Notes under the pieces: model-generated
What the model was told of the DNA's origin: nothing
The model's database searches: none
The model's input: only the letters and a program-made list of their open reading frames with translations
NCBI GenBank assembly: GCA_026394095.1
Contig: JAPKYY010000168.1
Location: forward strand, 1 to 13,012
Direction: 5' to 3'
Length of the DNA stretch: 13,012 nucleotides
Source of the DNA: Acidobacteriota bacterium
GTDB lineage: Bacteria; Acidobacteriota; Terriglobia; Bryobacterales; Bryobacteraceae
Shown here: positions 1 to 13,012 of the stretch, one piece after another
Position numbering within the stretch: position 1 is the first letter of the stretch
How the letters are laid out: each line of letters opens with the position of its first letter
Translations under genes and position numbers: made by a program

Positions 1-1452
1 AGGCAAAGTTGCGTTATCCAAATCCTTCGGTGAAACCATCAGGCCGCCTACATTGAACATCTGGGGCATGCCTGGAGCCGAACCGCCACGATTGCCGCGT
101 CCTGCAGGCATCGCGCCAGTCTTCTGCAGCTCGGCCGTCACTTTGGCCATGACTTCGGTGCGCTCTTCGGGGGTCATATCAGCCATGGCTTTGCCCTTGC
201 TGAACTTGGTTACCAGCTCACGCCGTTTGCGTTGCAACTCGGGATCCATGTTGCCGCCACCACCGCCACGCTGCCGCCCGCCGGCTTGCTCGGCTGGTGC
301 TGCAGCAGGCTGACCCATTCCCTGGGGCATGCCGCCTTCCGGCTGCGCAGCCATGGGAGGAGCGCTGAACGATGTCATCGGGCCCTTCTTGCGGTTGGTC
401 TCGGCTTGTGCCAGAATGCGGCTCACCTGCGATTCATTCGCGCCAAGGGCGCTGAGCAACTGCCGCATATCAATCGAAAAGATCACGTCAAACTTCTTCG
501 CCGGGTCAGAGCTGAACATGTTGGCCGAAGCCGTGCCACTCATCGACTTGATCTTGCCCGTAAACTTCTTGTCCGGCAACGCATCGAGGCGCATCGAAAC
601 TTCCTGACCCTCAGTCAAATTCGCACGGTCCAACTCGCCAACCTTGGCCACTACTTCCATCTCGCTCAGATCGAGAATGTCGGCCACTGGCATTCCTGGC
701 TGCACCTGGTCTCCCTCGCGAATATCCGGCAGCGACATGCCAAACATCATCACTGTCGAACGGTTCTGCTTCACTGCAACCAGACCACTCATCGGAGCCA
801 ACAACTTCACTTGCGCCAGCCGCTGCTTCTCTCGGTTCAGTTCGAGTTTGGCCTTATTCGTCTTCTCGCGCAACACAGCAAGCTCAGCCTGCGCCTGCTC
901 ACGACGGCTCTTGATGTCGCTCTCAAGCTGCGCCAGCCGGCGCTTGGATTCCTCCAGCGTCAATTGATTCTTCTTGGCATCAATGGCGCTGATCAACTCA
1001 TTGCGCTTGACCTCCAGCTCAGCCCGGCGAACTCCATAACGGGCGCGCAGCAACTCCACCTGATCCTGATTGTCACGAATCGCAAGATCAGCCTGCGCCT
1101 TCTTCACCTGCTCATCAATCTGGTCCAGCTCCAGTTGTTTTTCTTCAAGTCGCGATAACACTTCCGCATCGTCAAACTCAACCACCAGATCCTTCTCACG
1201 CGCCAGCGCACCCAGTGTCGCAAGCTTGGTCACCTGTACCGTGCCAAACAAATTCGGTGCAGTAAGGGTCGCACTCCGGACAGCCCTCAATTCACCGCGG
1301 GCAAAGCTGCGCACCACAACATCGCTCTGCTTCACCTTCGTTGTAGCCAGGGAATCTTCTCGCTGTGGAAGCTGCTTGTAGACGAGGAACGCGGCATAGC
1401 CAGCCCCCACGAGCACAAGGAGAATGATCAATCGAACAATAAGTTTTCGCAT
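1..1452 (-). CDS. HlyD/RND-family periplasmic adaptor, third of three (C-terminus off window)
   Basis: Membrane-fusion protein expected to link an inner-membrane ABC or RND exporter to the outer membrane. I translated it from the ATG at 1452; the frame stays open to base 1, giving 484 residues with no stop. Residues 1-23 are a basic, hydrophobic N-terminal anchor (MRKLIVRLIILLVL...). A half-lipoyl strand set lies at about 45-95 and ends in VVEFDDAE. A long charged helical hairpin (coiled coil) covers about 96-215, followed by the second lipoyl half (LLAPMSGLVAV, 217-227) and a beta-barrel starting near 265. After FDVIFSID (321-328), where the family normally reaches an LRPGM-type turn quickly, this protein enters a Gly/Met/Pro/Gln-rich stretch (about 357-470). 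That stretch includes a small charged helix, MTPEERTEVMAKVTAEL. The gene starts 9 bases after the preceding adaptor gene and has no clear Shine-Dalgarno, so translational coupling is likely. The real C-terminus lies outside the window. Confidence 0.9.
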   Translation of the reverse strand, partial: MRKLIVRLIILLVLVGAGYAAFLVYKQLPQREDSLATTKVKQSDVVVRSFARGELRAVRSATLTAPNLFGTVQVTKLATLGALAREKDLVVEFDDAEVLSRLEEKQLELDQIDEQVKKAQADLAIRDNQDQVELLRARYGVRRAELEVKRNELISAIDAKKNQLTLEESKRRLAQLESDIKSRREQAQAELAVLREKTNKAKLELNREKQRLAQVKLLAPMSGLVAVKQNRSTVMMFGMSLPDIREGDQVQPGMPVADILDLSEMEVVAKVGELDRANLTEGQEVSMRLDALPDKKFTGKIKSMSGTASANMFSSDPAKKFDVIFSIDMRQLLSALGANESQVSRILAQAETNRKKGPMTSFSAPPMAAQPEGGMPQGMGQPAAAPAEQAGGRQRGGGGGNMDPELQRKRRELVTKFSKGKAMADMTPEERTEVMAKVTAELQKTGAMPAGRGNRGGSAPGMPQMFNVGGLMVSPKDLDNATLP

Positions 1453-1461
1453 GTCGGGAAT

Positions 1462-2766
1462 TTATAGTTTCTTCTGCTTGCGTGCTGCTTCGGATGGGTT
1501 CTCAAGAGTGACCACTTCACCCTCCTTGAGCCCGTTCAGCACTACCGTCTCGTTATCGTTGCGCTTGCCCACTTCGATCTGGCGCACAGCAAAGACTTGC
1601 CCCTTCTGCACATACACAGAAGGCTTGCCGCCAACCGTAAAGCTGGCTCGAGTCGGGATCAGCAGCATGTTTGCTTCGCTCTCAATCAAAATTTCGGCCG
1701 AAGCGCTCATGCCAGGCCTCAACCTCTTGTCGGTCCCGCTAATGGTCGCCCGGGCCGGGAAAGACTTCTCAGTCATGCCCATGCCGCGCCATTGCACCGA
1801 TGCAATCGGGCTGATCCAGTCCAGCTTGGCATCAAATTCGCGGTCGGGAATGGCATCGATCCGCACCTTAACGGTCTGCCCCAACTCCAGCTTGCCACGG
1901 TCCACCTCATCCAGTTTCAAATCAATTCGCAGCAACGAAAGATCGGGAATCTCGGCGATCGCTGCACCAGTCCAGGCCCTGTCGCCTTCCTTGAATGGTG
2001 GAGGACTCGAGCCCCAGCTCCCCTGACTGCGGAAGTTCGGCAGCAGGTTCACAATACCGTCGCCAGGGGCGCGGAGAACCATGTTGCCGAGATAACCCTT
2101 CGCCCGGTTCACATCACGAACAGCCTTGTCTTTATTTTGATCGAGCCTCTCAAGATCTGCATTCTGCGTGGCCTTGTGCGTCTTGATCGTCTGCCCCACC
2201 TGCCCCAATTCGCCATCGGAAATCCCTACATCAATCCGGCTCTTGGCACCCTCAATTTCACTCACAACTTCGGCCTTGCTGGCCTCAAGCTTCGAGCGCT
2301 CAAGGTTATACTCTGCCGTCATCTTGTTCATGCCATCCATCTCGGTGACAATCCGGTGCGACGCCTTGGTCTGAACAATCTGGCTATCGATTGTACGAAC
2401 GCTCGTATTGCGTTCGAGCAAATTTTGCTCCTGCTGTGCGGCGTCAAACTCCACCACTACTTCACCCTTGCGAATCGGCTTGCCACTCTCGGCCAACCTG
2501 ACGATTCGCGGATCCGGCACCTGCGGCGCAATGATTGTCACCGAGTTAACGCTGCGAATCTCGCCGCGAGCCCTCACCACAATCGTAAAATTGCCCTTGC
2601 GCACCTTTGCCACAGGCACTTCCACCACGCTCGTCTTCTGGTTGTAGTTGAACGCAGCATAGCCGCCACCGGCGCAGGCCAGCAACACCACACCCATAAG
2701 GATGCGCTTGTTACGCACACTGGACTCAGTCTGTCCAATTCGGATTTTCGGTTTGATTTCTGACAT
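1462..2766 (-). CDS. HlyD/RND-family periplasmic adaptor, second of three
   Basis: Complete 434-residue membrane-fusion protein, a normal size for the family, and the most regular of the three. It has a cytoplasmic basic start and one membrane anchor (about 21-40, ILMGVVLLACAGGGYAAF). The first lipoyl half is about 58-108 (APQVPDPRIVRL, ending VVVEFD), with a coiled-coil hairpin about 109-228. The second lipoyl half begins LRAPGDGIVNLLP (231-243), and the beta-barrel includes LRPGMSASAEI (349-359). A membrane-proximal domain follows (VYVQKGQVFAVRQIEVG) and the tail is lysine-rich (QKKL). The ATG at 2766 is preceded by AGGGG about nine bases upstream, inside the last codons of the gene before it; the two genes are 6 bases apart. 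The order anchor, lipoyl, hairpin, lipoyl, barrel fits adaptors of MacA/HlyD type. The partner permease is not visible, so the exported substrate is unknown. Confidence 0.93.
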   Translation of the reverse strand: MSEIKPKIRIGQTESSVRNKRILMGVVLLACAGGGYAAFNYNQKTSVVEVPVAKVRKGNFTIVVRARGEIRSVNSVTIIAPQVPDPRIVRLAESGKPIRKGEVVVEFDAAQQEQNLLERNTSVRTIDSQIVQTKASHRIVTEMDGMNKMTAEYNLERSKLEASKAEVVSEIEGAKSRIDVGISDGELGQVGQTIKTHKATQNADLERLDQNKDKAVRDVNRAKGYLGNMVLRAPGDGIVNLLPNFRSQGSWGSSPPPFKEGDRAWTGAAIAEIPDLSLLRIDLKLDEVDRGKLELGQTVKVRIDAIPDREFDAKLDWISPIASVQWRGMGMTEKSFPARATISGTDKRLRPGMSASAEILIESEANMLLIPTRASFTVGGKPSVYVQKGQVFAVRQIEVGKRNDNETVVLNGLKEGEVVTLENPSEAARKQKKL

Positions 2767-2772
2767 ACAGCG

Positions 2773-4515
2773 CTACCCCTTACTTGCCACAAGGTTGGCC
2801 GTTGGAACTTTATCAAGGGCAATCACGTCCCCACGATTCAAACCCTTCACGGCAGCAACCAGATAATTTTCGAGACTTACTTCTACTTCGCGGCGATTCC
2901 AGGCCTCGCCATTCTTGATGTAGACCACCCGCTTGCCGGTCTCTTCGTCGGCAAACACACCAGCCAGCGGTGCAACCACTGCATCTTTCTCCTCAAGTAT
3001 CACCACGTCCACACTGCAGCTCAGGTCAGGAATAATTCGCTTGTCCATCTGATCAATCTTCAGCCGCACCGGAATCTCACGAACAAAGCTCGCTCTCATC
3101 CCACCACTTTTCGGTACCGCTGCGATGTTCACGATATGCGCTGGCACCTCAAGCCCGGGATAGGCATCAAAGCGAACCCGCGCCTTCATCCCGATCCGCA
3201 ACTGTTCGCCGTCCACCTGATTGACAGTCGCGTTGATGATCATGGAATTCGGATCTACAATCTGCATAAAGAATTGCCCGGGATAGATCTGATCGCCCTG
3301 CTGAATCTGGGCGAACTCACTCCCCCGGAAGATATTCTGCATTACCGTCATCCCGGCGATATTCGCCTTGGATAGCATCCGGTCTGCATTCTGTTGCGAA
3401 CGCTGATATTCGAGCTGCAGCGTCTTGAACTCAAGCTCGGCATATTTCAGCTGCGCTTTTTCCTGTTCATCGATAAACTTGCCTTCGGCCAACTGCTGCT
3501 TATACTGCGCCTCGGCTTCCTCAAGGGTCAGCTTCACTCGCTCAGCATCGATCGAACTCAATACCGGTAGCGTCTTCATATCCAGCTTCGCCTTGTCGAG
3601 CGCCCCTTTGGCCTTCTCAACATTCTGATTGTGGGTATATCGTGCCAGGTCCAGATTCGCCTTCTGCTGAGCCAACTGCGCCTTGGCTGTCTCCATCGTT
3701 GCCTGGTAGTCTTCAAGCCTTTGCAGCATGTACTGACGATCAAACTCCGCCACTGTATCGCCCTGCTTGACGATCGACCCTGGCTTCACCAAATTCTGCA
3801 GCACCAGCGTAAAATCGCCACCACCTCCGCCTGGACCACCGCCTCCGCCTGGCCCGCCCAGTCCAGAACCCAATTCTCTCGACGTCGAACCCAATCCATC
3901 GCTCCCTACGGACGAACTCGTTCCAGCGCCACCGCTGCCGCCAGTCGCACTTCTCGCCCCACCGCTACCAGAGGAAGCAACACGGCTCGATGCCGCCCGC
4001 GTCGCACCAGATCCCCCAAAACTCCTGGCCGCCCCGCCGCCAGTAGAGGCCAGCGAACCAGCAGCCCCAGCCGCTGCAGCCGAACCAGACGAAGAACCGC
4101 TACCACTACGAGCTCCGCCACCGCCAAGAGTCGGCAACGCCGCTACACTTGACGATTCCATACCAGCGAGGCTAAATCCGCTTCTTCCACGGCCAGACCT
4201 GCTACCACGAATTTGCGGTGCGATCAATGAAACAAATTTTTCGGCTGCCGTCACCCCAGCCAGGCGCTTCGTTTTCTCAACCGAACCGCTTTGCACCGTA
4301 GCCGTCCGTACCCCTTCACGAACCTGCGCCGCCTGCTTATCGATCGCTTCCTGCTTTTGCCACAGCCAGTAACCAACACCACATACAGCAATAAAACCCA
4401 GAATAATCAACCACTTAGAGGTAGGCCGACGCTCGTCTTCATGGCTGGGCACCGCCGTCGGGCCGGGCGGCTTAAGCGGAACTCCGCTGGAACCTGGATT
4501 CACATGGGGCTGCAT
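2773..4515 (-). CDS. HlyD/RND-family periplasmic adaptor with large Gly/Ser-rich insertion, first of three
   Basis: Membrane-fusion protein of 580 residues, well above the usual 350-450, because of an insertion. Residues 1-34 are proline-rich and cytoplasmic; 35-52 (WLIILGFIAVCGVGYWLW) form the membrane anchor. The first lipoyl strand ends in SLIAPQIRGS (about 96-105). It is interrupted by about 132 low-complexity residues (103-234) and resumes at DFTLVLQNLVKPGS to end in TVAEFD. A coiled-coil hairpin spans about 258-375. The second lipoyl half is atypical (NIAGMTVMQNIFRGSEFAQI) and leads into beta-barrel and membrane-proximal regions (RVRFDAYPGLEV; VVYIKNGEAWNRREVEV). The ATG at 4515 follows a GAGACA stretch and sits about 28 bases after a perfect TATAAT, making it the operon's first gene. 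It is probably part of an exporter. I cannot tell whether the three adaptors act as a hetero-oligomer or with separate permeases. Confidence 0.92.
   Translation of the reverse strand: MQPHVNPGSSGVPLKPPGPTAVPSHEDERRPTSKWLIILGFIAVCGVGYWLWQKQEAIDKQAAQVREGVRTATVQSGSVEKTKRLAGVTAAEKFVSLIAPQIRGSRSGRGRSGFSLAGMESSSVAALPTLGGGGARSGSGSSSGSAAAAGAAGSLASTGGGAARSFGGSGATRAASSRVASSGSGGARSATGGSGGAGTSSSVGSDGLGSTSRELGSGLGGPGGGGGPGGGGGDFTLVLQNLVKPGSIVKQGDTVAEFDRQYMLQRLEDYQATMETAKAQLAQQKANLDLARYTHNQNVEKAKGALDKAKLDMKTLPVLSSIDAERVKLTLEEAEAQYKQQLAEGKFIDEQEKAQLKYAELEFKTLQLEYQRSQQNADRMLSKANIAGMTVMQNIFRGSEFAQIQQGDQIYPGQFFMQIVDPNSMIINATVNQVDGEQLRIGMKARVRFDAYPGLEVPAHIVNIAAVPKSGGMRASFVREIPVRLKIDQMDKRIIPDLSCSVDVVILEEKDAVVAPLAGVFADEETGKRVVYIKNGEAWNRREVEVSLENYLVAAVKGLNRGDVIALDKVPTANLVASKG
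3814..4209 (-). repeat. Low-complexity Gly/Ser/Ala/Arg tract inside the first adaptor gene
   Basis: These bases encode residues 103-234 of the first adaptor. They are almost entirely Gly, Ser and Ala with scattered Arg, ending in two GPGGGGG-type units. Nearby short units repeat imperfectly (GGSG, SSG, ARS), and the + strand shows runs such as CCACCTCCGCCTGG and CCACCGCCTCCGCCTGG in tandem. The reading frame is intact throughout. The two neighbouring paralogues have only a few residues at the same place (VPD and LFG), so the tract is an insertion at the tip of the lipoyl-like hairpin. Confidence 0.85.
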
Positions 4516-4572: not shown

Positions 4573-4600
4573 ATCGTTGAAGAGACGTACAATTCCAGTA

Positions 4601-5173
4601 GTGAAGCAAGGTCCATTTGGGCGTCTCCTCAATCACATTCAGGACTTCGGGCTTGCCGGTATCCATCTCCGCTTTCTCGCTGGCCTCAACCTCTATCGAA
4701 AAATGTCGATTTTCGAGCTTGACCTTGACCACCTCAAGCCAACCCCGGAGGCAAAAATCCCTGTTGTCATTTCTACCGACAACACCTCAGAAGCAGCAAC
4801 ATGCTACTCCGCCATGTATGACGGTCAAATAGTTTCCTGCCTCAAGAAATCGGAAGGCTCCATCCTTCTCCCCTATATTGCTCAAAGCCTCCACCTCACC
4901 CCTAATGAATGCTATCTCCATGGTGCCTTCACTGAACCGGACTTCCGCAGCAAAGGCCTGCTAGGTGCTCTCATCTCTTACGCCTGCCAGCACACCCATC
5001 ACTCCAGAGCCCTCGTCGCCATCACCAGCTACAACAAGTCATCCACAAGAGCTTTTTCGAAAGCTGGTTTCAAACTCAAACAGATCAGAGGCTACTACGG
5101 CCTTGGGCCGTGGCGCCATCACTTTGCCGCTCAGCCAGCGCCAACAGGAAATACCCGGTCTTCAGGCGCGTAG
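4601..5173 (+). CDS. GNAT-family N-acetyltransferase-like protein
   Basis: Predicted acyl-CoA-dependent N-acyltransferase, cytosolic, of about 190 residues. The core is recognisable in the second half. A strand with YLHGAFTEPDFRSKGLLGAL matches motif A (the R-x-x-G acetyl-CoA pyrophosphate loop, here R-S-K-G-L-L-G). It is followed by a strand with VAITSYNKSSTRAFSKAGF, the usual N-x-x-S-x-x-x-F-x-K-x-G-F end of GNAT domains, and a terminal KQIRGYYGLGPWR. The N-terminal 40 residues are helical and basic (RFLAGLNLYRK). The start is uncertain: GTG at 4601 is chosen because codon bias (C in third positions) begins soon after it. TTG at 4577 and ATG at 4703 are alternatives, and none has a clear Shine-Dalgarno. 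The 3' end overlaps the convergent methyltransferase gene by 89 bases. The acceptor is unknown; it may act on the product of the neighbouring oxidation/methylation genes, which is inference from position. Confidence 0.75.
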   Translation: MKQGPFGRLLNHIQDFGLAGIHLRFLAGLNLYRKMSIFELDLDHLKPTPEAKIPVVISTDNTSEAATCYSAMYDGQIVSCLKKSEGSILLPYIAQSLHLTPNECYLHGAFTEPDFRSKGLLGALISYACQHTHHSRALVAITSYNKSSTRAFSKAGFKLKQIRGYYGLGPWRHHFAAQPAPTGNTRSSGA

Positions 5174-5942
5174 GTAACTTCTCGAGCAAATCGAAAGGCC
5201 TCAGCATCTTGCGGTATAGGCCAGGGGTCAACCAGCGTTTCGCCCCACAGTATCGAGCCGTCGCTACCGCCAGCGCACGCGGCTCGTGTACCACCGCCGT
5301 GAATTCCTTCACCGCCCACCCAGTCCCGGCAAGCACCGCTCGAAATCCCTCTGCATCTAATGTTTTGCCGTACTCATAGGGAGCCAGGCCAATCCCCTGC
5401 AAAAAGCCATTCGGAATAAGGTTTCGCATTGCTAGCAATGGATTGCTGGCATTGTCGAGCGTGATCAGAAGTTGCCCACCAACCCGAGTTACCCGTGCCA
5501 ATTCCCGCAAACTATCCCCGATTTCCACCTCCGTCCGAAAGTGATCGAGCGTAGAGAACGAGGTAACAGCGTCAAAACTCGCTTCGGCATAAGGCTGAAC
5601 CTGCGCCGGAGCCTGCACCCACGAAACCCTTCGATTCCCGTGTAACCGGGCACCCTGCCGCAGCGCCGGCAATGCAAGATCAGCCACAACCACTTGCTCA
5701 AATCGCTCAGAGAGTGCTTCCAGAACTTCCTGCCCGCGGATCTCTTCAAATGCATCCGTCTTGAGCACCCGGCCACCACCCCTCAGATACCGGCGCACCC
5801 ACTCCGCATAGTGCTCTCGAGAGTACCTCAACCATTCGGTCTGCGTCTCCATACGCAACTCATCCGCCAGGTGTTCTTCCCAATAATGCTGGTCCCGCTG
5901 GCGTGTAGAGCTGTCGATTTCGTCCGTGAGCTTCAGATCCAT
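5085..5942 (-). CDS. Class I SAM-dependent methyltransferase, atypical motif I (paralogue A)
   Basis: Predicted soluble methyltransferase of 285 residues. An N-terminal helical cap with HYWEEH leads to the Rossmann core. Motif I reads GRVLKTDAFEE (about 57-67) instead of the usual glycine-rich V-L-D-x-G-x-G-x-G. The acidic residue ending strand 2 is D88 (VVVADLA). Motif IV region is FDAVTSFSTLDHF (123-135), and the strand-5 region is RVGGQLLITLDNASNPL (153-169). The C-terminus has EPRALAV and LPTR. These features recur in order in the methyltransferase gene at 10440-11189, so the two are paralogues along their whole length. The ATG at 5942 is preferred over TTG at 5948; neither has a good Shine-Dalgarno. 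It diverges from the molybdenum-hydroxylase operon with only about 30 bases between starts, suggesting shared regulation. Substrate (O-, N- or C-methylation) cannot be told. Confidence 0.85.
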   Translation of the reverse strand: MDLKLTDEIDSSTRQRDQHYWEEHLADELRMETQTEWLRYSREHYAEWVRRYLRGGGRVLKTDAFEEIRGQEVLEALSERFEQVVVADLALPALRQGARLHGNRRVSWVQAPAQVQPYAEASFDAVTSFSTLDHFRTEVEIGDSLRELARVTRVGGQLLITLDNASNPLLAMRNLIPNGFLQGIGLAPYEYGKTLDAEGFRAVLAGTGWAVKEFTAVVHEPRALAVATARYCGAKRWLTPGLYRKMLRPFDLLEKLPTRLKTGYFLLALAERQSDGATAQGRSSL

Positions 5943-5973
5943 GAACAAGCCATATACAGTATCCTACTTGAGA
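5943..5973. promoter_or_regulatory. Very short divergent intergenic region, probable overlapping promoters
   Basis: Only 31 bases separate the preferred ATG of the minus-strand methyltransferase (5942) from the preferred ATG of the molybdopterin subunit (5974). It holds an AT-rich core, CATATACAGTATCC. On the + strand TATACA (5953-5958) is a four-of-six match to a -10 box. On the minus strand GATACT and TATATG are similar weak matches. No good -35 box or Shine-Dalgarno is visible, so core promoter elements probably extend into both coding regions. Weak evidence; alternative + starts at 5926 (GTG) and 5941 (ATG) would remove the gap completely. Confidence 0.3.
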
Positions 5974-8016
5974 ATGCAGGATCGGATCGGAACATCGGCC
6001 CCCCGGCGTGAAGCCGCGTCAAAGGTATCAGGCAGGTCCATCTACACCGACGACGCTCCTAGCTACGAAACGCTTTACGGTGTCACTGTCCGCTCTACGG
6101 TCCCTCACGCACGAATTCGCAAGATTCACTTCGCCCCCGATCTCCCCTTGGACGAATTCACAATTGTCTCTGCCGACGATTTGCCTGGCCCAAACGTAGT
6201 AGCCTCCATTTGCGAAGACCAGCCCTGCCTTGCCTCCTCCAAAGTAAACCATGTCGAGGAAGCAATACTGCTTATCGCACATCCAGATCGATACCTCGCC
6301 GAGCGCGCCCGCCAGAGCGTCTGCATCGAATACGATCCACTCCCTGCGGTTTTCAACCCGGCGCTCTCTACTCACGCCTTCAAAACCTGCAACATCTCCA
6401 AAGGCCTCCCCACCCAGGCCTTTGCCAATGCTCCTCACATTATCGAAGGCACCTACACAACGGGCGCACAGGAACAGCTTTACATTGAGCCGCAGAGTAT
6501 TGATGCCGCTTTTCTAAACAACACGCTCACCATTTGGGGCTCCATGCAATGCCCCTACTTCATTCAGAAGGCTCTCGACAGGGTCTTCCCCTTCCCTTCC
6601 CGTGTCATCCAGATGGAGACTGGAGGAGGTTTTGGCGGTAAAGAAGATTACCCCTCCATCCTCGCCATCCACGCAGGCCTGCTCTCATGGAAATCAGGCA
6701 AGCCAGTTAAAATGATCTACTCGCGCGGGGAAGACATGGCCGCCACTACCAAGCGGCACCCGGCAATCGTCAAGCATCGCACTGCCGTCGATGCACAAGG
6801 CAGGCTCCTGGCCATGGAGGTCGACATCCTGCTCGACGGTGGTGCTTACGCTACCCTCTCACCTGTCGTGCTGTCCCGCGCCGCCATCCATGCCACCGGC
6901 TGCTACTTCTGCCCGGATATCCAGATCGAAGCCCGTGCCGTAGCAACAAACCATCCACCCCACGGAGCCTTCCGCGGCTTCGGCGTCCCTCAGGTAAATT
7001 TCGCTCTCGAGCGCCACATGGACGTAATTGCCGCATCGCTCCGGATCGACCCGGTCACCATCCGCCGCCGCAACTTCCTTCAACAGGGTCAAAGAACAGC
7101 CACCGGCCAGGTCCTTCATGAGTCAGTCCCACTCCAAGAGCTCCTCGATCGCGCACTTCTGGAATCCAGCTACGAAAGCAAATCAGGTCTCGGCATTGCC
7201 GCTTCCCTGCACGGTGCGGGCTTCACCGGTTCAGGCGAACGATATCTGCAATCAGTTGCCTGCCTCGAAAGAACCGCCGAAGGGAAAATCCGAGTCCTCG
7301 TCTCAAGCACAGAATTTGGCCAGGGCACCAATACGATCCTTTCCCAAATAGTGGCCGATGAACTACAACTCCCCCTCGACGACATCGAAATCGTCCAGCC
7401 CGATACCAGCATCGTCCCGGATTCCGGCCCTACCGTCGCCTCGCGCACTGCCATGATCGTCGGCAACCTCCTCGCAGATGCAGCCCGCCAACTCAAAAGT
7501 CCGGGGGTCAACAAGGCCAGCGCAAAATATGTCCCGCCACACGGAATCGCCTTCGACGAGGCCACCTTCACCGGTGACGCCTACGCCACCTTTTCCTGGG
7601 CAGTCAACATTGCCGAACTGGACATCGATCAGTCCACAGGGCAAACCAAGTTGAAAGATTTTGTTGCCGTTCAGGACGCTGGCAAAATCATCAACCCCAC
7701 TCTCGCCGCCGGACAGATCGAAGGCGGTGTTGCTCAGGGCATCGGTTTCGCGCTCATGGAAGAAGTCACCTACGAAGAGGGCCGCGTTTGGAACCAGCGC
7801 ATGGCCAACTACACCATTCCTACAGCCGCAGACTTGCCTCCTATACGCGTCTTTTTCCTGAATTCTGATGCTTCTCAAGCGAAAGGCCTCGGAGAACTTC
7901 CGATGAACGCTCCCGCCCCGGCCATCGCAAACGCCCTCTCAAGACAACTCGGTACCAATTTCAACCACCTACCCATCACTCCAGAGAAAATCCTCAAATG
8001 CGACAGATCCCGGTAA
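5974..8016 (+). CDS. Xanthine dehydrogenase-family molybdopterin-binding (large) subunit
   Basis: Catalytic subunit of a molybdenum hydroxylase, which inserts water-derived oxygen into a C-H bond of an aldehyde or N-heterocycle. Residues 1-120 form the a/b hammerhead domain (IGTSAPRREAASKVSG; YTDDAP). The Mo-cofactor domain shows GGGFGGKED (217-225), GAFRGFGVPQ (331-340), EFGQGTNT (447-454), ASRTAMIVGN (489-498), EGGVAQGIG (583-591) and GLGELPMNAPAPAIANA (638-654). In the last, E641 corresponds to the catalytic glutamate. FRGFG instead of the AYRCSFR loop places it with xanthine/aldehyde oxidoreductases, not CO dehydrogenase. At about 680 residues it is somewhat short; the stretch between ADAARQLKS and YVPPHG appears condensed. 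Start options are GTG 5926, ATG 5941 and ATG 5974. The last is chosen because family members usually begin just before the IG-x-S-x-PR motif. It is first gene of the operon and overlaps the next gene by 19 bases. Confidence 0.93.
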   Translation: MQDRIGTSAPRREAASKVSGRSIYTDDAPSYETLYGVTVRSTVPHARIRKIHFAPDLPLDEFTIVSADDLPGPNVVASICEDQPCLASSKVNHVEEAILLIAHPDRYLAERARQSVCIEYDPLPAVFNPALSTHAFKTCNISKGLPTQAFANAPHIIEGTYTTGAQEQLYIEPQSIDAAFLNNTLTIWGSMQCPYFIQKALDRVFPFPSRVIQMETGGGFGGKEDYPSILAIHAGLLSWKSGKPVKMIYSRGEDMAATTKRHPAIVKHRTAVDAQGRLLAMEVDILLDGGAYATLSPVVLSRAAIHATGCYFCPDIQIEARAVATNHPPHGAFRGFGVPQVNFALERHMDVIAASLRIDPVTIRRRNFLQQGQRTATGQVLHESVPLQELLDRALLESSYESKSGLGIAASLHGAGFTGSGERYLQSVACLERTAEGKIRVLVSSTEFGQGTNTILSQIVADELQLPLDDIEIVQPDTSIVPDSGPTVASRTAMIVGNLLADAARQLKSPGVNKASAKYVPPHGIAFDEATFTGDAYATFSWAVNIAELDIDQSTGQTKLKDFVAVQDAGKIINPTLAAGQIEGGVAQGIGFALMEEVTYEEGRVWNQRMANYTIPTAADLPPIRVFFLNSDASQAKGLGELPMNAPAPAIANALSRQLGTNFNHLPITPEKILKCDRSR

Positions 8017-8441
8017 CGGTCAACGGCACAGAACATCTCATCGAAGCCTGGCCAATGGAGCGGCTGCTCGATTTGCTCCGCCGCAATCTTGGCCTCACCG
8101 GCACCAAAGAAGGCTGCGGCGAAGGCGAATGCGGGGCTTGCGCGATTCTCTTCAATGGCCAGCTCGTTAACTCCTGCCTGATCCCGGCAGCACAATCGGC
8201 CGGATCAACCATCGTCACCATCGAAGGCCTTGAAGATTCCCGTCTCAAACAGGCCTTCATCGATACAGGCGGCTCGCAGTGTGGCTTCTGCACACCAGGC
8301 ATGATTCTTGCCTCTCACGTTCTGCTGGAATCAAATGAAAACCCCTCTGAACTTGAAATCCGCGAGGCTCTCGCAGGCAACCTCTGCCGCTGTACCGGCT
8401 TCACAAAAATCATCGAAGCCGTCCGCAAGGCCCGGCTATGA
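7998..8441 (+). CDS. Molybdenum hydroxylase 2Fe-2S (small) subunit
   Basis: Electron-transfer subunit of 147 residues, the standard size for the small subunit. It has an N-terminal plant-ferredoxin-like domain with C40-x4-C45-x2-C48-x11-C60 (KEGCGEGECGACAI). The C-terminal helical domain has C95-x2-C98 (QCGFCTPGM) and C130-x-C132 (LAGNLCRCTGF). All eight cluster ligands are present, so both 2Fe-2S clusters should form. It would pass electrons from the molybdopterin site of the preceding gene product to the FAD subunit encoded next. The ATG at 7998 lies inside the last codons of the large-subunit gene (19-base overlap), and the stop overlaps the next start as ATGA. No twin-arginine signal is seen, so the complex is presumably cytoplasmic. 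Confidence 0.96.
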   Translation: MRQIPVTVNGTEHLIEAWPMERLLDLLRRNLGLTGTKEGCGEGECGACAILFNGQLVNSCLIPAAQSAGSTIVTIEGLEDSRLKQAFIDTGGSQCGFCTPGMILASHVLLESNENPSELEIREALAGNLCRCTGFTKIIEAVRKARL

Positions 8442-9265
8442 GAAGTTTCGTCCCCGAATTTGAGCTCTCCACCCCGGCCTCACTGGCCGAAGCCCTAATG
8501 CTCATTGCCTCTGGTGCACGGCCCTTCGCTGGCGGCACAGACGTCATGGTCGGGCTCGATGCCGGCCAACTCACTCACCGCCACTTCGTCAATCTGGCGC
8601 CGCTGACAGAACTTCGCTCCATCCAGGACTGCAACAACTCGATTCAGATCGGCGCTCTGAGTACCTATACAGACATCGCCAACTCCAGCCTCATCGCAAA
8701 ACACTTCCCCATGCTCGCCGCGGCTGCACGTCAAACCGGCTGCCTGGCCATTCAGAATCGCGGCACCATTGGAGGCAACATCGCCAATGCTTCTCCGGCT
8801 GCAGACTCTTGCCCCGTCCTGCTCGCCTACGACGCAAGCATCCTCCTGCGCTCCTCCAACGGCCAACGCACCATCCCCTATCAGCAATTTCATACCGGCT
8901 ACAAAGCTATGGCCCTGGCCCCCGGCGAACTCATTGAAGCCATCCGCTTGCCGATCCGCGGAGGCATCTGGATCGATCGCTTTCGCAAGGTAGGCCCACG
9001 CCAGGCCCAGGCCATCGCCAAACTCAGCCTCGCCGCCTCAGCTCAAGTATGCAGTGGCAAGATCAGCGCAATCCGCATTGCCTTCGGCGGCATGGCCCCA
9101 ACCCCACTCCGTTGCCACCGCACCGAAGACCAGATCCTCTCCGGCCAACCCTGGCACCTCGACGAGCTCCAACCGATTACCGATAACCGCTCGACAGTCG
9201 AATACCGCAAACAAGTCGCCTACAATCTGATGAAGGACTTCATCCAGAGCCTCAACCACGAATGA
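8438..9265 (+). CDS. Molybdenum hydroxylase FAD-binding (medium) subunit
   Basis: FAD subunit of 275 residues, which hands electrons to the final acceptor. The PCMH-type FAD fold is shown by PFAGGTDVMVG (29-39) and TIGGNIANASPAADSCPVL (110-128), both FAD pyrophosphate-contacting loops. APGELIEAIRLP and RFRKVGPRQAQAIAKLS follow in the second half, then the C-terminal CO-dehydrogenase flavoprotein-like domain (IRIAFGGMAPTPLRC). There is no cysteine-rich insertion of the kind that adds a 4Fe-4S cluster in 4-hydroxybenzoyl-CoA reductase. It starts with an ATGA overlap with the 2Fe-2S gene and ends with an ATGA overlap with the P450 gene. The order large-small-medium completes a three-subunit enzyme; no maturation chaperone (XdhC/CoxI-like) or cofactor gene is in the window. 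Confidence 0.95.
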   Translation: MRSFVPEFELSTPASLAEALMLIASGARPFAGGTDVMVGLDAGQLTHRHFVNLAPLTELRSIQDCNNSIQIGALSTYTDIANSSLIAKHFPMLAAAARQTGCLAIQNRGTIGGNIANASPAADSCPVLLAYDASILLRSSNGQRTIPYQQFHTGYKAMALAPGELIEAIRLPIRGGIWIDRFRKVGPRQAQAIAKLSLAASAQVCSGKISAIRIAFGGMAPTPLRCHRTEDQILSGQPWHLDELQPITDNRSTVEYRKQVAYNLMKDFIQSLNHE

Positions 9266-10443
9266 AAGCGCAAACCCCGCCTGGCTCCCTCTCCCTCTTC
9301 TCTTCGCTCCGTGCCATCCGGCAGCGTAGCTTTTACAGCGAAGAAGTAAAGAAGTATGGCCCGGTCTTCAAGACCGCTCAATTCCATCACCGCGTGATCT
9401 GCATCGCCAACCTTCCGCTCGCACACCGCCTGCTGCGCGAGCAGGCAGCCTCCATTGCCCCATGCCCTCAGAATTTCACCAAAGATGTAACAGGTGGCTT
9501 CCTGCGCTTCATGTCCCCCATGAATTACAAGATCTACGGGCCCATGTTTCGACGGGCCTTTGCCAGACCCGTGGTCGAAGCTTCTTCTTCATTCGCTCGC
9601 AAAAAAATACATGAAGATCTCGCTGGACTTGCCTTGCCGCAAGATCCCCTAAATAAACTCAAAGATCTGACCCATCAGATTTTTGTGCGGATCCTCTTCG
9701 GCCTCGAACCAGGCTCACCGATGCTGGATAAGTTCCGCTCATCCTTTGCCGCAATGGCAGATAAATCGATGTCCCAACGTCTCGGCACTGCGGGCCTGGC
9801 TGCTCTGGCCGATCTGCGAGCCATGCTTCGCAATCCACCCGAGGCAATCTCTTCGATCTCTGATCTGGCCCAACAGCTAGACGGTACACTCAACGACACC
9901 GTAATCGACAACCTTCTCTTCACCCTCCGCATCTCTACCAACGATGCAGCAGGTCTGCTCGTCTGGATCCTCGAATTCCTCGGCCGCAATCCATACTGGC
10001 TCGACCAGGTGCGTAAGCAGGAAGATCCTACGCTCCCTTCCCGCATTATCAAAGAAACGCTCCGCCTCTCACGCAGTGAATTCCTCTACAGAAGAGTGGC
10101 CCAGGAATTCGAATTTGAGAACTTCCGTTTCCCTGAAGGCTGGCTCATTCGCATCTGTATCGCCGAGTGCCACCTGGACCCAACCCATTTCGCCGCCCCG
10201 TATACCTTCAACCCCGACAGATTCCTCGGCCCGCCACCCTCCGACCACATCTACTCCCCCTTCGGCATTCGGGATCACGCCTGCAGTGGTGTCGAGTTCG
10301 CTACGATGATTGCAAATCTGGTAATTGATGAGTTGCGGAACTACGACATCATTCTCTCCGGCCCGGCACTAGCGCAGCGTGGCTTCCGACATTGGAATCA
10401 CTGGTGCCCTTCCTCCAAAGTTGCTCTACGGCCTCGGACATGA
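9262..10443 (+). CDS. Cytochrome P450 with non-canonical I-helix
   Basis: Soluble bacterial P450-type heme protein of 393 residues, a typical length, with no membrane anchor. The ExxR motif is ETLR (265-268, within KETLRLS). The PERF-like segment is FNPDRFLG (316-323). The heme loop is SPFGIRDHACSGVEFA (332-347) with C341 as thiolate ligand; against F-x-x-G-x-R-x-C-x-G it has R337 in place of Gly and H339 in place of Arg. The I-helix reads LRISTNDAAGLL: D228 is kept, but the usual following threonine is A229. The C-helix reads YGPMFRRAF. The missing threonine may mean substrate-assisted oxygen activation or a reaction other than simple hydroxylation; this is inference. No ferredoxin or reductase gene is nearby. 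ATGA overlaps join it to the FAD-subunit gene and to the methyltransferase gene, so it is made with the molybdenum hydroxylase and probably acts in the same pathway. Confidence 0.93.
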   Translation: MKAQTPPGSLSLFSSLRAIRQRSFYSEEVKKYGPVFKTAQFHHRVICIANLPLAHRLLREQAASIAPCPQNFTKDVTGGFLRFMSPMNYKIYGPMFRRAFARPVVEASSSFARKKIHEDLAGLALPQDPLNKLKDLTHQIFVRILFGLEPGSPMLDKFRSSFAAMADKSMSQRLGTAGLAALADLRAMLRNPPEAISSISDLAQQLDGTLNDTVIDNLLFTLRISTNDAAGLLVWILEFLGRNPYWLDQVRKQEDPTLPSRIIKETLRLSRSEFLYRRVAQEFEFENFRFPEGWLIRICIAECHLDPTHFAAPYTFNPDRFLGPPPSDHIYSPFGIRDHACSGVEFATMIANLVIDELRNYDIILSGPALAQRGFRHWNHWCPSSKVALRPRT

Positions 10444-11189
10444 AGAGTGCTACTTACTGGGACCAAATCACCACTGGCTTCATCAGACATCGTCACCGTG
10501 GTATCTGGCGTGAATTTACTGATCAGTTAAACCAGTCTTTGGTCGCAGAACTTTTGGCTGGCCCACCCGCAGGACGCATCCTGAAAACCGATCTCTTCGA
10601 CGAAGCGATGCTGAAGGGCGTCGTTGACCCTATGGCCCGAATCGCATCTGAAGTCCATGGCATCGACATTTCTGATCTTGTCGCAAGAACAGCAGCAGAA
10701 CAGAACCCCAACGCTATCTTCAGGCAAGCCAGCGTTACGCAGATTCCGTATCCCGATCAATACTTCGACACCGTCGTCTCATTGTCCACACTCGATCAAC
10801 TGGAAACGATCGAAGAAGTCCACCAGGGCCTATCGGAAATCCATCGCGTACTCGCCCCCGGCGGACGTCTTCTGATCACCTTCGACAATCGCTCCAACCC
10901 GCTGATAGCCGTTCGCAAATACTTGCCCTTCATCTGCGGCCCATATTTCATGGGCGAATCAGTGAGAGTCGCCCAGCTCAAGCCACTGCTCGAATCACGC
11001 GGATTCCAACTGCAACGCATCTTCACCTACATGCATGCTCCAAGGGTGCTAGCGGTTAAAATCTGCCGCCTTCTCGAACACAAACCCTACGCACCAACCA
11101 TCGCCAAACTCCGTCTCTTCGAAGCCCTCGACAATTGGCCCACCAGAAATTGGACCGCAAACTACATCGGCGCAATTGTCCAAAAGTAA
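10440..11189 (+). CDS. Class I SAM-dependent methyltransferase, atypical motif I (paralogue B)
   Basis: Predicted soluble methyltransferase of 249 residues, last gene of the operon. Motif I is RILKTDLFDEA (46-56), again with Lys-Thr-Asp where glycines are usual. Strand 2 ends HGIDIS (D76), motif IV region is FDTVVSLSTLDQL (109-121), and then come VLAPGGRLLITFDNRSNPL (137-155), APRVLAV (200-206) and WPTR (233-236). This is the same motif order and C-terminal layout as the methyltransferase gene at 5085-5942, so they are diverged paralogues. The strand-2 and APGG regions are more canonical here than in paralogue A. The ATG at 10440 overlaps the P450 stop as ATGA and matches the coupling seen at the two previous junctions; an in-frame ATG at 10392 would force a 52-base overlap and is unlikely. 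It probably methylates the product of the preceding oxidation steps, which is inference. Confidence 0.88.
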   Translation: MKSATYWDQITTGFIRHRHRGIWREFTDQLNQSLVAELLAGPPAGRILKTDLFDEAMLKGVVDPMARIASEVHGIDISDLVARTAAEQNPNAIFRQASVTQIPYPDQYFDTVVSLSTLDQLETIEEVHQGLSEIHRVLAPGGRLLITFDNRSNPLIAVRKYLPFICGPYFMGESVRVAQLKPLLESRGFQLQRIFTYMHAPRVLAVKICRLLEHKPYAPTIAKLRLFEALDNWPTRNWTANYIGAIVQK

Positions 11190-11240: not shown

Positions 11241-12620
11241 CTAGCCGTTCATGCTTGAAAGGAACTCGCCATTGCTCTTCGCCTTCGAAAGCCTGTCGAG
11301 CAACAACTCGATCGACTCGGTTGGCGACAACGGCGACAACACCTTGCGCAGAATCCAGACCCGGTTCAACTCATCCTTAGGCAGCAGCAACTCGTCCTTG
11401 CGAGTACCGCTCTTGTTGATGTCGATCGCCGGGAAGACACGCTTGTCTACCAGCTTGCGATCGAGGTGAACTTCCATGTTGCCTGTACCCTTGAATTCTT
11501 CAAAGATTACATCATCCATACGGCTTCCGGTGTCAATCAGCGCCGTAGCCATGATTGTCAGGCTGCCACCCTCTTCAATGTTGCGGGCCGCACCAAAGAA
11601 GCGCTTAGGGCGCTGCAGTGCGTTCGAGTCCACACCACCAGAAAGCACCTTGCCCGAAGGCGGCACTACCGTGTTGTAGGCACGAGCCAGACGCGTAATC
11701 GAATCGAGCAAAATCACAACATCGCGCTTGTGTTCCACCAACCGCTTCGCCTTCTCGATCACCATTTCAGCAACCTGCACGTGGCGGGCCGCTGGCTCAT
11801 CGAAGGTCGATGAAATCACTTCGCCCTTCACACTGCGCTGCATGTCGGTGACTTCTTCCGGACGCTCATCGATCAACAGAACAATGAGATTCACTTCTGG
11901 ATGATTTGTCGTAATCGAGTTTGCAATCGACTGCAACATCATCGTCTTACCGGTACGCGGCGGAGCAACAATCAAACCACGCTGGCCCTTGCCGATCGGC
12001 GTCAGCATGTCCATCACGCGACCAGAATAGTTGTCCTTGGTCGTCTCCAGCTTCAACCGTTCGTTCGGATAAAGTGGCGTGAGGTTGTCAAAGAAAATCT
12101 TGTTGCGGGTTTCTTCCGGCGCCTCAAAATTGATCGCATCCACTTTGATCAGCGCAAAGTAGCGTTCGCCTTCTTTGGGAGGACGAATCTGACCGGAAAT
12201 CGTATCGCCAGTTCTCAAATCAAAACGGCGGATCTGCGAAGGGGAAACGTAAACGTCATCAGGGCCCGGAAGGTAGTTGTACTCGGGAGCGCGCAGGAAT
12301 CCGAAGCCATCTGGCAAACATTCCAGCACACCTTCTGAGAAGATCAGGCCACTCTTTTCGGCTTGGCTCTGGAGGATCTTGAAGATCAACTCCTGCTTGC
12401 GCAACCCAGCCGTCTGAACGAGGCCAAATTCCTTGGCAATCACGTTCAGCTTTTGGATGCTCATGTCCTTGAGCTCCACCAGATTCAGGTTCGGCGCCTG
12501 TTCTTTAACTTCGCGGCGGCGTCCCTTGGGGCCTTCTGCGGCAGCGGGCGCACCCGCATCCTGCCCATTGTCCTGCCCCGGATTTACCGCGGCGTCTTTG
12601 ATTTCGTTATCGTTTGCCAA
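11241..12620 (-). CDS. rho: Transcription termination factor Rho
   Basis: Hexameric RNA-dependent ATPase/helicase that ends transcription at Rho-dependent sites. Complete at 459 residues, slightly longer than E. coli Rho because of a polar Ala/Gly/Asn/Asp N-terminal extension (about 1-42). The Rho N-domain follows ([20 protein letters not shown]), then the RNA-binding cold-shock-like domain with GFGFLR (105-110) and Y/F contacts. The ATPase core has Walker A APPRTGKT (219-226), the catalytic-Glu region [10 protein letters not shown] (251-260), Walker [17 protein letters not shown] (301-316), the Q-loop [12 protein letters not shown] (320-331) and the R-loop region FKGTGNMEV (376-384). The start is TTG at 12620, supported by GAGG five bases upstream. 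The first 37 bases of the gene overlap the end of engB in another frame, so the two are probably translated in a coupled way. Transcription ends at the hairpin at 11188-11218. Confidence 0.98.
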
Positions 12621-13012
12621 ATTTCCCTCACTCCGCGGCCACTTAAGGCCGAGAACGGCATGATTTCCCTGCCAGGCACTTCTGCCCGCATGGCTGCCAT
12701 GCTCTGGTTTTCTTCTTTACGGTTCAGCTTGTCGATCTTCGTAGCCACCACCAGATACGGCCTTTGGTAATGCTCGAGATAATCCCGCAATTGCCGGTCT
12801 GCATCCATCCACCCGCGTCGCGAGTCAACTAGCAGCAGCGACAATTCCAATGTCTGGCGTCCCAGCAGATACGCATCCGCAAGCGCCTTCCAGTGGCCCG
12901 ATTCCGATTTCGGAACCCTTGCGTACCCATATCCAGGCAAGTCCACCAGCAGGAATCGATCGCCTACCCGGTAGAAATTGATGGTCTGTGTCCTTCCAGG
13001 AGTTGAGCTGAC
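12584..13012 (-). CDS. engB: Ribosome-biogenesis GTP-binding protein EngB/YihA/YsxC (N-terminus off window)
   Basis: GTPase needed for large ribosomal subunit assembly. The frame is open to the right edge, giving the C-terminal 142 residues; roughly the first 55 to 65 residues, with the P-loop (G1), lie outside. Visible motifs are the G2 loop [13 protein letters not shown]3 VDLPGYGYA, then the family's switch region [15 protein letters not shown]. The nucleotide-specificity loop is TKID (the T-K-x-D form usual in this family), and G5 is [30 protein letters not shown] is the conserved strand and helix before G4. The stop codon lies 37 bases inside the downstream rho gene. The ATG-like start often assigned near 12946 (a GTG) is not real, because clear homology continues upstream to the window edge. 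Confidence 0.96.
12624..12629 (-). promoter_or_regulatory. Shine-Dalgarno of rho
   Basis: On the minus strand GAGGGA precedes AAT and then the TTG start, so the GAGG core is five bases from the start codon. It lies inside the engB coding sequence and decides for the TTG at 12620, since no ATG or GTG with a similar site is near. Confidence 0.7.

Follow-up and report, generated by a model that had tools for sequence, protein, structure and literature searches.

A rare operon encoding a xanthine-dehydrogenase-type molybdenum hydroxylase and a non-canonical cytochrome P450 in Bryobacteraceae: a candidate purine-modifying pathway

The lumichrome catabolic operon of Nocardioides simplex is a known pathway in which a cytochrome P450 and a xanthine-oxidase-type enzyme are encoded together. 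According to the available text of the report, it contains 25 genes, and the self-sufficient P450 LumU (81 kDa) and the xanthine oxidase LumJ (140 kDa) take part in the breakdown of one N-heteroaromatic (PMC12746152). The operon studied here likewise combines the two enzyme types, but differs from the available description in several respects: its Mo enzyme consists of three small subunits instead of one 140-kDa protein, its 393-residue P450 comprises the P450 domain only, with no ferredoxin or reductase fusion, and the amidases and dioxygenases of the lumichrome operon are absent from the window's 12 genes (PMC12746152). The main text of the lumichrome paper nowhere uses the term methyltransferase (PMC12746152). 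In the literature searched, which consisted mostly of titles and abstract openings, we found no description of a MoL-FeS-FAD-P450-MT2 operon. The preliminary description of this DNA had proposed an undescribed pathway, and the characterised counterpart that came to light is a different one.

The window, that is, the whole stretch of 13,012 nucleotides that was analysed, comes from a Bryobacteraceae soil bacterium (genome G000). The five plus-strand genes (Table 1) overlap at all four junctions exactly as first described, with 19 shared bases at 7998-8016 and ATGA overlaps at 8438, 9262 and 10440. MoL probably starts at 5974 and not at 5941, as its orthologue in G004, the second genome of the genus, begins at the residue matching ATG 5974. 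Three HlyD-type adaptor genes adjoin the operon. In agreement with the preliminary description, no core synthase was found among the window's 12 genes, and a cluster built round such an enzyme was rejected. The same 12 genes include no ferredoxin or P450 reductase gene, and none of them encodes an amidase, a ring-cleaving dioxygenase or any other ring-opening enzyme.

Table 1. Features of the operon and its neighbours, in window coordinates.
Feature	Position	Strand	Basis
MoL, molybdopterin-binding subunit, xanthine-dehydrogenase-type Mo-hydroxylase	5941..8016	+	Pfam Ald_Xan_dh_C, MoCoBD_1, MoCoBD_2
2Fe-2S subunit (FeS)	7998..8441	+	Pfam Fer2, Fer2_2; 19-base overlap with MoL
FAD subunit	8438..9265	+	Pfam FAD_binding_5, CO_deh_flav_C; ATGA overlap
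Cytochrome P450, 393 aa	9262..10443	+	Pfam p450; family alignment; CYP120A1 register; model pLDDT 91.9
MT2, methyltransferase-fold protein, degenerate motif I (LKTDLFDEA)	10440..11189	+	Pfam Methyltransf_11 from profile position 12
MT1, distant MT2 paralogue, divergent neighbour; system membership doubtful	5085..5942	-	
GNAT acetyltransferase; system membership doubtful	4577..5173	+	Pfam Acetyltransf_1, 26 bits

The five genes were found in the same order in G004 (locus L033), where all junctions again overlap (25, 4, 1 and 4 bases). The proteins of the two operons are 51-69% identical and synonymous sites are saturated; order and overlaps kept at such divergence show that the operon is real, beyond chance. 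All five genes are present in only these two of 237 family genomes, and the P450 subfamily in four. Of the other two, G007 contains the P450 and MT2 with the Mo genes absent, and G173 contains the P450 with both the Mo genes and MT2 absent; the link between the Mo enzyme and the P450 is therefore loose. Comparison with G007 indicates purifying selection on both the P450 and MT2 (dN/dS of 0.08 and 0.17, respectively). In the protein database, relatives of FAD, P450 and MT2 come from contigs of matching lengths (72315 and 5123 bases), presumed to be the same contigs. A foreign origin of the island was unsupported because the island and its flanks show similar synonymous divergence from G007 (0.88-1.72 and 0.81-1.06, respectively); dN/dS against G007 is higher in the island than in the flanks. 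A weak scar suggests that G007 once had the Mo genes and then lost them. When a FAD remnant was sought at the expected place, the best position was 9195, and values as high occurred in 10 of 5000 shuffles and in 9 of 3231 overlapping windows. Alignment of G007 with the complete Mo trio gave no significant match (score of 30; shuffle mean of 24.8 and maximum of 38), and a FAD-gene remnant, significant in the expected-place test alone, was not accepted.

As evident from the Pfam matches, the Mo, two 2Fe-2S and FAD domains lie on the matching subunits of a xanthine dehydrogenase, and the best PDB matches are xanthine oxidoreductases. The positions that we take to bind xanthine (Gln768, Glu803, Arg881, Phe915, Phe1010, Thr1011 and Glu1262 in human numbering) are all kept in the MoL proteins of the window and of G004. 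Twelve further Mo-hydroxylases from four related genomes served as controls; 11 keep one to three of the seven residues and one keeps all seven. In 14 of 20 contexts examined, MoL relatives sit with purine-catabolic genes. The operon thus shares its three subunits, their domains and the xanthine-binding residues with the PucCDE/XdhABC-type xanthine dehydrogenases of purine catabolism, which are found in the uricase operons of Bryobacteraceae. In contrast to these, its genes overlap those of a P450 and MT2, and no purine reference gene was present in the window or in L033. A search limited to Pfam uricase gave no match in G000 or G004, although a uricase might be missed in G000 because this genome is 88.9% complete. 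Additionally, the tree places the two P450-linked Mo subunits in a clade of their own (99/97), separate from a 17-row group (96/91) with every purine-operon row, and MoL is 50-58% identical to the other aligned family copies. MoL falls far below every NCBIfam equivalog cut-off (best match pucD, 376 against 784 bits), and the Mo subunits encoded in three uricase operons likewise fail to reach the pucD value (452-464 bits); we therefore claim active-site likeness and not equivalog identity. On the retained residues and the purine-operon relatives, the substrate class, first proposed as perhaps a heteroaromatic, can be sharpened to a purine-like compound.

The nearest solved structure to the operon P450, by profile and by fold, is the cyanobacterial retinoid P450 CYP120A1 (TM-score of about 0.8 on the query), to which it is about 20% identical. 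The model shows a P450 fold, the haem ligand Cys341 being present in all 36 family members and Glu265 and Arg268 of the ExxR motif being invariant. Compared with CYP120A1, the operon P450 has Asp228 at the I-helix Thr position and Arg337 in place of the usual haem-loop Gly, and it is devoid of the N-terminal extension found in longer relatives. An acid-alcohol pair in the I-helix is usual in P450s but not universal; here it is missing, with Asp or Asn at the Thr position in 35 of the 36 members (register from CYP120A1). The family, which ends in an invariant C-terminal HW, is rare and occurs in records labelled as five phyla. A survey of 297 Acidobacteriota genomes revealed the P450 in two, one of them the window's own, and a survey of 294 planctomycete genomes returned the one member already known and no new one.

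We also found Mo-hydroxylases beside distant members of this P450 family. Of 16 genomes, four have such an enzyme in the flank, a xanthine dehydrogenase in two cases, and none was seen in the other 12; many flanks are truncated where the contig stops. At L040 the neighbour is a curated xanthine dehydrogenase (1151 bits, cut-off 849.5), and at L162 it lies 0.4 bits below the cut-off, accompanied by an XdhC above its own cut-off, while the Mo subunit of L039/L041 has Asn in place of the xanthine Arg. Three Mo neighbours were observed at nine distant loci against 0.17 expected (P of 0.0004, or 0.011 counting two alike clusters once), both values having been calculated after the pattern was noticed. 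The Mo label showed no clustering in the P450 phylogeny (328 of 500 shuffles were as low). The other partners differ by lineage, being methyltransferase-like in the window, an aminotransferase and a glycosyltransferase in a planctomycete and sulfotransferases in a gemmatimonad, as expected of a common oxidised core that is differently decorated.

In the reading that we prefer, and hold with roughly even confidence on the basis of sequence, the five genes would encode a recruited xanthine-dehydrogenase-type enzyme of three subunits and a non-canonical P450 that successively convert a purine-like N-heterocycle, and MT2 would serve as a tailoring protein. The Mo enzyme would hydroxylate a ring carbon adjacent to nitrogen; the P450, with Asp for the I-helix Thr, would oxidise or couple this product, perhaps by substrate-assisted oxygen activation; and MT2 would methylate the oxidised product. 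The preliminary description had a single substrate, perhaps a heteroaromatic, oxidised by two chemistries, methylated at one or two positions and optionally acylated. One unit kept in the divergent G004 and the plausible pairing of Mo-hydroxylase and P450 uphold the first part, whereas methylation by two enzymes and acylation were not supported. As the search for Pfam uricase gave no match in both operon-bearing genomes, we consider a part in modification or biosynthesis more likely than simple purine degradation, and the operon may mark an uncharacterised purine-modifying pathway, since the P450 family adjoins xanthine dehydrogenases in some other phyla. If true, the purine reading would provide a substrate class for a rare uncharacterised P450 family and a second role for xanthine dehydrogenase beyond purine breakdown. 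Extending it to an undescribed pathway class across phyla is speculative, and we consider it improbable: a xanthine dehydrogenase would supply an oxidised purine, which a P450 lacking the I-helix Thr would couple or further oxidise to give a purine-derived metabolite or a surface decoration, with methyl, glycosyl or sulfate groups added depending on lineage, and, in the boldest form, the Mo enzyme would also be the electron source of the P450.

Alternatively, the operon could catabolise or detoxify an environmental N-heteroaromatic, with the Mo-hydroxylase and P450 priming the ring for breakdown as LumJ and LumU do and with MT2 being incidental. The lumichrome precedent, as far as its text was available (PMC12746152), and the adjoining HlyD-type genes fit this proposal, but the window's genes offer no ring-opening enzyme, MT2 is kept together with the P450 in both G004 and G007, and LumU, as described there, is a self-sufficient fusion unlike the single-domain P450 of the operon; we judge it unlikely. 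Slightly less probable is a housekeeping-type xanthine dehydrogenase that shares a transcript by chance, and no substrate, with an unrelated P450-MT2 pair. Of 24 family genomes with a related Mo subunit, 22 lack the operon's P450 subfamily, which the preliminary description had named as counter-evidence, and G007 and G173 show the reverse case. However, the P450-linked Mo subunits are a separate clade, a weak scar suggests loss in G007, translational overlaps are kept in two divergent genomes, the P450 family adjoins Mo-hydroxylases of other lineages, and neither operon-bearing genome yielded a Pfam uricase. It is very unlikely that the Mo enzyme serves as the P450's electron source, passing ring electrons through its FeS and FAD centres: a window devoid of ferredoxin and P450 reductase genes, the FAD-P450 gene overlap and the recurrence of the neighbourhood in other phyla would agree with it, but bacterial P450s commonly have donors encoded away from the P450 gene, and the P450 persists without Mo genes in G007, under purifying selection, and in G173, where a different donor must therefore serve.

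The preliminary description had also treated 4601-11189 as one island containing two sister methyltransferases. The five-gene operon stands within this span, but GNAT and MT1 are not beside the operon in G004; MT1 adjoins the P450 in G007. MT1 is indeed an MT2 paralogue (33% identity over MT2 residues 4-247, E of 9.1e-27), but sisterhood is too strong a term, as MT1 is absent from the best 120 of 224 MT2 relatives, all with E of 1.1e-34 or better; this and the 30-33% identity led us to reject a recent tandem duplication. MT2 has a Rossmann-like methyltransferase fold similar to that of the class I SAM methyltransferases RebM, MitM and AtmM, with weak sequence similarity (MitM, E of 7e-7). In contrast to these enzymes, motif I is degenerate in the MT2 family, reading LKTD[LA]F[DE]E in all 37 members. 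GxGxG occurs in one member (P0162), directly after LKTDLFDE, and in neither MT1 nor MT2, and one near-invariant glycine, Gly60, remains. The string KTDLFDEA was not found in the literature searched. The family is a large one of methyltransferase fold, with a SAM loop that appears rebuilt around the invariant LKTD motif. Methylation by two enzymes was unsupported because the set of genes common to the window's operon and G004 excludes MT1 and because both proteins have a degenerate SAM motif. The GNAT call itself held (26 bits, cut-off 20.7); acylation by this protein was unsupported because nothing ties it to the operon, and in G006, a genome without the operon's P450 subfamily, a GNAT gene lies near an MT1 relative. 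The GNAT and MT1 genes overlap convergently by 89 bases, and the same overlap is present in G007 (L032 2924-3012).

The three subunit genes of a xanthine-dehydrogenase-type Mo-hydroxylase (MoL, FeS and FAD) are followed by genes for a P450 and a methyltransferase-fold protein, MT2, and the overlaps that the preliminary description had claimed for this operon proved exact upon checking the window sequence. The ATG at 5941, the earliest in the MoL reading frame, shares bases with the start codon of MT1, a second methyltransferase-fold protein encoded on the minus strand (5942). Because the first residue of the MoL orthologue in the family genome G004 matched ATG 5974 of the window in a sequence comparison, a MoL start at 5974, with a gap of approximately 31 bases to MT1, is likelier. 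The window makes up all of contig C946 of a Bryobacteraceae genome, G000. The adjoining acetyltransferase gene (GNAT) and MT1 had an 89-base tail-to-tail overlap in both G000 (window 5085-5173) and G007 (locus L032, 2924-3012).

Genes of the window and their coordinates
Feature	Position	Strand
Three HlyD-type adaptor genes	1-4515	-
GNAT	4577-5173	+
MT1	5085-5942	-
MoL, FeS, FAD, P450, MT2, in that order	5941-11189	+
Rho	11241-12620	-
GTPase	12584-13012	-

The operon is genuine and rare, and is conserved in two divergent genomes. Profile matches to the P450 at E 1e-25 or better were found in 11 of 237 family genomes, and the subfamily itself was present in only four of these (G000, G004, G007 and G173; 563-578 bits); a second, longer relative in G173 scored 405 bits, and the remaining seven genomes scored 94-105 bits. 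G004 contained all five operon genes in the same order, with overlaps of 25, 4, 1 and 4 bases. The G173 P450 lies without the Mo genes, and neither MoL (at E 1e-110) nor MT2 (at E 1e-12) had a match in that genome. In the protein database, contigs of 72315 and 5123 bases recurred among near relatives of P450, MT2 and FAD, and from these matching sizes they are taken as two more putative operon copies. A contig size of 3774 bases was common to one P450 and one MT2 relative; no FAD relative on such a contig was present among the 120 of 7990 FAD matches listed.

In G007, which belongs to the same genus as G000, the locus lies on contig 93 (9408 bases), where GNAT, MT1, P450 and MT2 are arranged as in the window and no Mo genes were found between MT1 and P450. 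When the 52-base stretch preceding P450 in G007 was compared with successive windows across the Mo trio, it aligned best at the 3' end of the FAD gene (best start 9195). Scores as high as that of the window at the gene end were reached by 9 of the 3231 overlapping windows and by 10 of 5000 shuffles; aligned with the trio as a whole, it gave no significant score. Additionally, 29 bases beside MT1 in G007 aligned with the stretch beside MT1 in the window (1 of 5000 shuffles). With reserve, we read this G007 stretch as a possible deletion scar of the Mo genes; the five-gene unit would therefore be older than its loss there. The island is retained, yet it is evolving faster than the HlyD-type genes, as evident from dN/dS values against G007 of 0.08 (P450), 0.10 (MT1), 0.17 (MT2) and 0.28 (GNAT) compared with 0.01-0.04 for the three HlyD-type genes. 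In G007 (L032, 3600-9406), these three successive adaptor genes were 91-98% identical to those of the window and were followed by a MacB-type permease gene.

The best PDB matches of the window Mo enzyme were xanthine oxidoreductases. We checked MoL for human Gln768, Glu803, Arg881, Phe915, Phe1010, Thr1011 and Glu1262, which we take to be the xanthine-binding set, and found all seven aligned residues kept in the window and G004 proteins. G000, G004, G007 and G173 contain 21 further MoCoBD_1 genes, and 12 of these served as a control; 11 of the 12 kept one to three of the seven residues, with some positions gapped because several contigs are cut. The twelfth, a Mo-hydroxylase encoded elsewhere in G173 than the subfamily P450 (L175, 1754-4036), kept 7/7.

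Of the 237 genomes, 24 had MoL relatives (E 1e-110 or better); the P450 subfamily was absent from 22 of the 24, and the contexts of 20 of those 22 were inspected. At least two purine-catabolic genes were found in 14 of the 20 contexts, 12 of which included uricase; among the other six, two lay on contigs shorter than 5 kb and one adjoined IMP dehydrogenase. The gene set comprised uricase, hydroxyisourate hydrolase, OHCU decarboxylase, allantoinase, allantoicase, allantoate amidohydrolase, ureidoglycine aminohydrolase and a purine-type deaminase. NCBIfam supplied the names of the reference proteins, with three exceptions: the allantoate amidohydrolase clears only the hydantoinase/carbamoylase subfamily cut-off, the deaminase scores below the TadA cut-off, and the allantoicase reference, from locus L129, carries a fused OHCU decarboxylase domain. 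In the tree, window and G004 MoL formed a clade (99/97) outside a 17-row group (96/91) containing every purine-operon row. Pfam uricase was present in one of eight genus genomes and was not found in G000 (88.9% complete) or G004 (98%). The best reading, at about even odds, is that a xanthine-dehydrogenase-type enzyme was recruited to work with the P450 family on a purine-like ring, on which MT2 would perform a tailoring step in this operon; the substrate class is proposed from active-site residues and kinship.

At 393 residues, the P450 is without the N-terminal extension seen in its relatives of approximately 500 residues. Its predicted model was confident (pLDDT 91.9) and nearest to CYP120A1, and a gapless alignment with that protein gave the residue register. 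Among 36 aligned members, Cys341 was invariant, and the I-helix Thr position was occupied by Asp (20 members), Asn (15) or Ser (one). Arg took the place of the haem-loop Gly in all ten short Bryobacteraceae-like sequences and in no others. On one gemmatimonad contig (L042, 4825-9668), three overlapping ORFs matched the P450 family, as copies or frame artefacts.

MT1 and MT2 (10440-11189) are members of a large methyltransferase-fold family whose fold resembles that of RebM, MitM and AtmM. The usual motif I was replaced by LKTD[LA]F[DE]E in all 37 aligned members, and GxGxG was found in only one, directly behind this sequence. Methyl transfer is likely but putative.

Distant P450 members were examined in 16 genomes (G261-G269, G308, G366, G393, G544, G564, G1077 and, as its second copy, G173), and a Mo-hydroxylase was present in the available flank in four: G263 (L039), G264 (L040), G265 (L041) and G308 (L162). 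L040 contained, on one strand, FeS-FAD, MoL, aminotransferase, P450 and glycosyltransferase genes, and its MoL was a curated xanthine dehydrogenase (1151 bits against a cut-off of 849.5). L162, also on one strand, contained FeS-FAD, MoL (849.1 bits against 849.5), XdhC (166.3 against 161.6), a sulfotransferase, P450 and a second sulfotransferase. The Mo subunits of L039 and L041 had Asn in place of the xanthine Arg, and L039 carried glycosyltransferase and flippase genes. At nine extra-family loci, three Mo neighbours were seen against 0.17 expected from genome counts (P 0.0004, post hoc), or P = 0.011, likewise post hoc, if L039 and L041, alike as one cluster type, count once. The Mo label required six changes on the P450 tree, and 328 of 500 shuffled labels were as low, hence no extra clustering; this fits repeated gain or loss and is by itself no argument for a functional link.

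Longer P450 members (L039, L040, L038 and L162) occur together with surface-glycan or sulfation genes, namely glycosyltransferases, a flippase, an ABC-2 exporter and sulfotransferases. A weak family member at L163 (1668-7155) adjoins an AMP-binding/carrier/thioesterase protein, a TauD dioxygenase and a deaminase.
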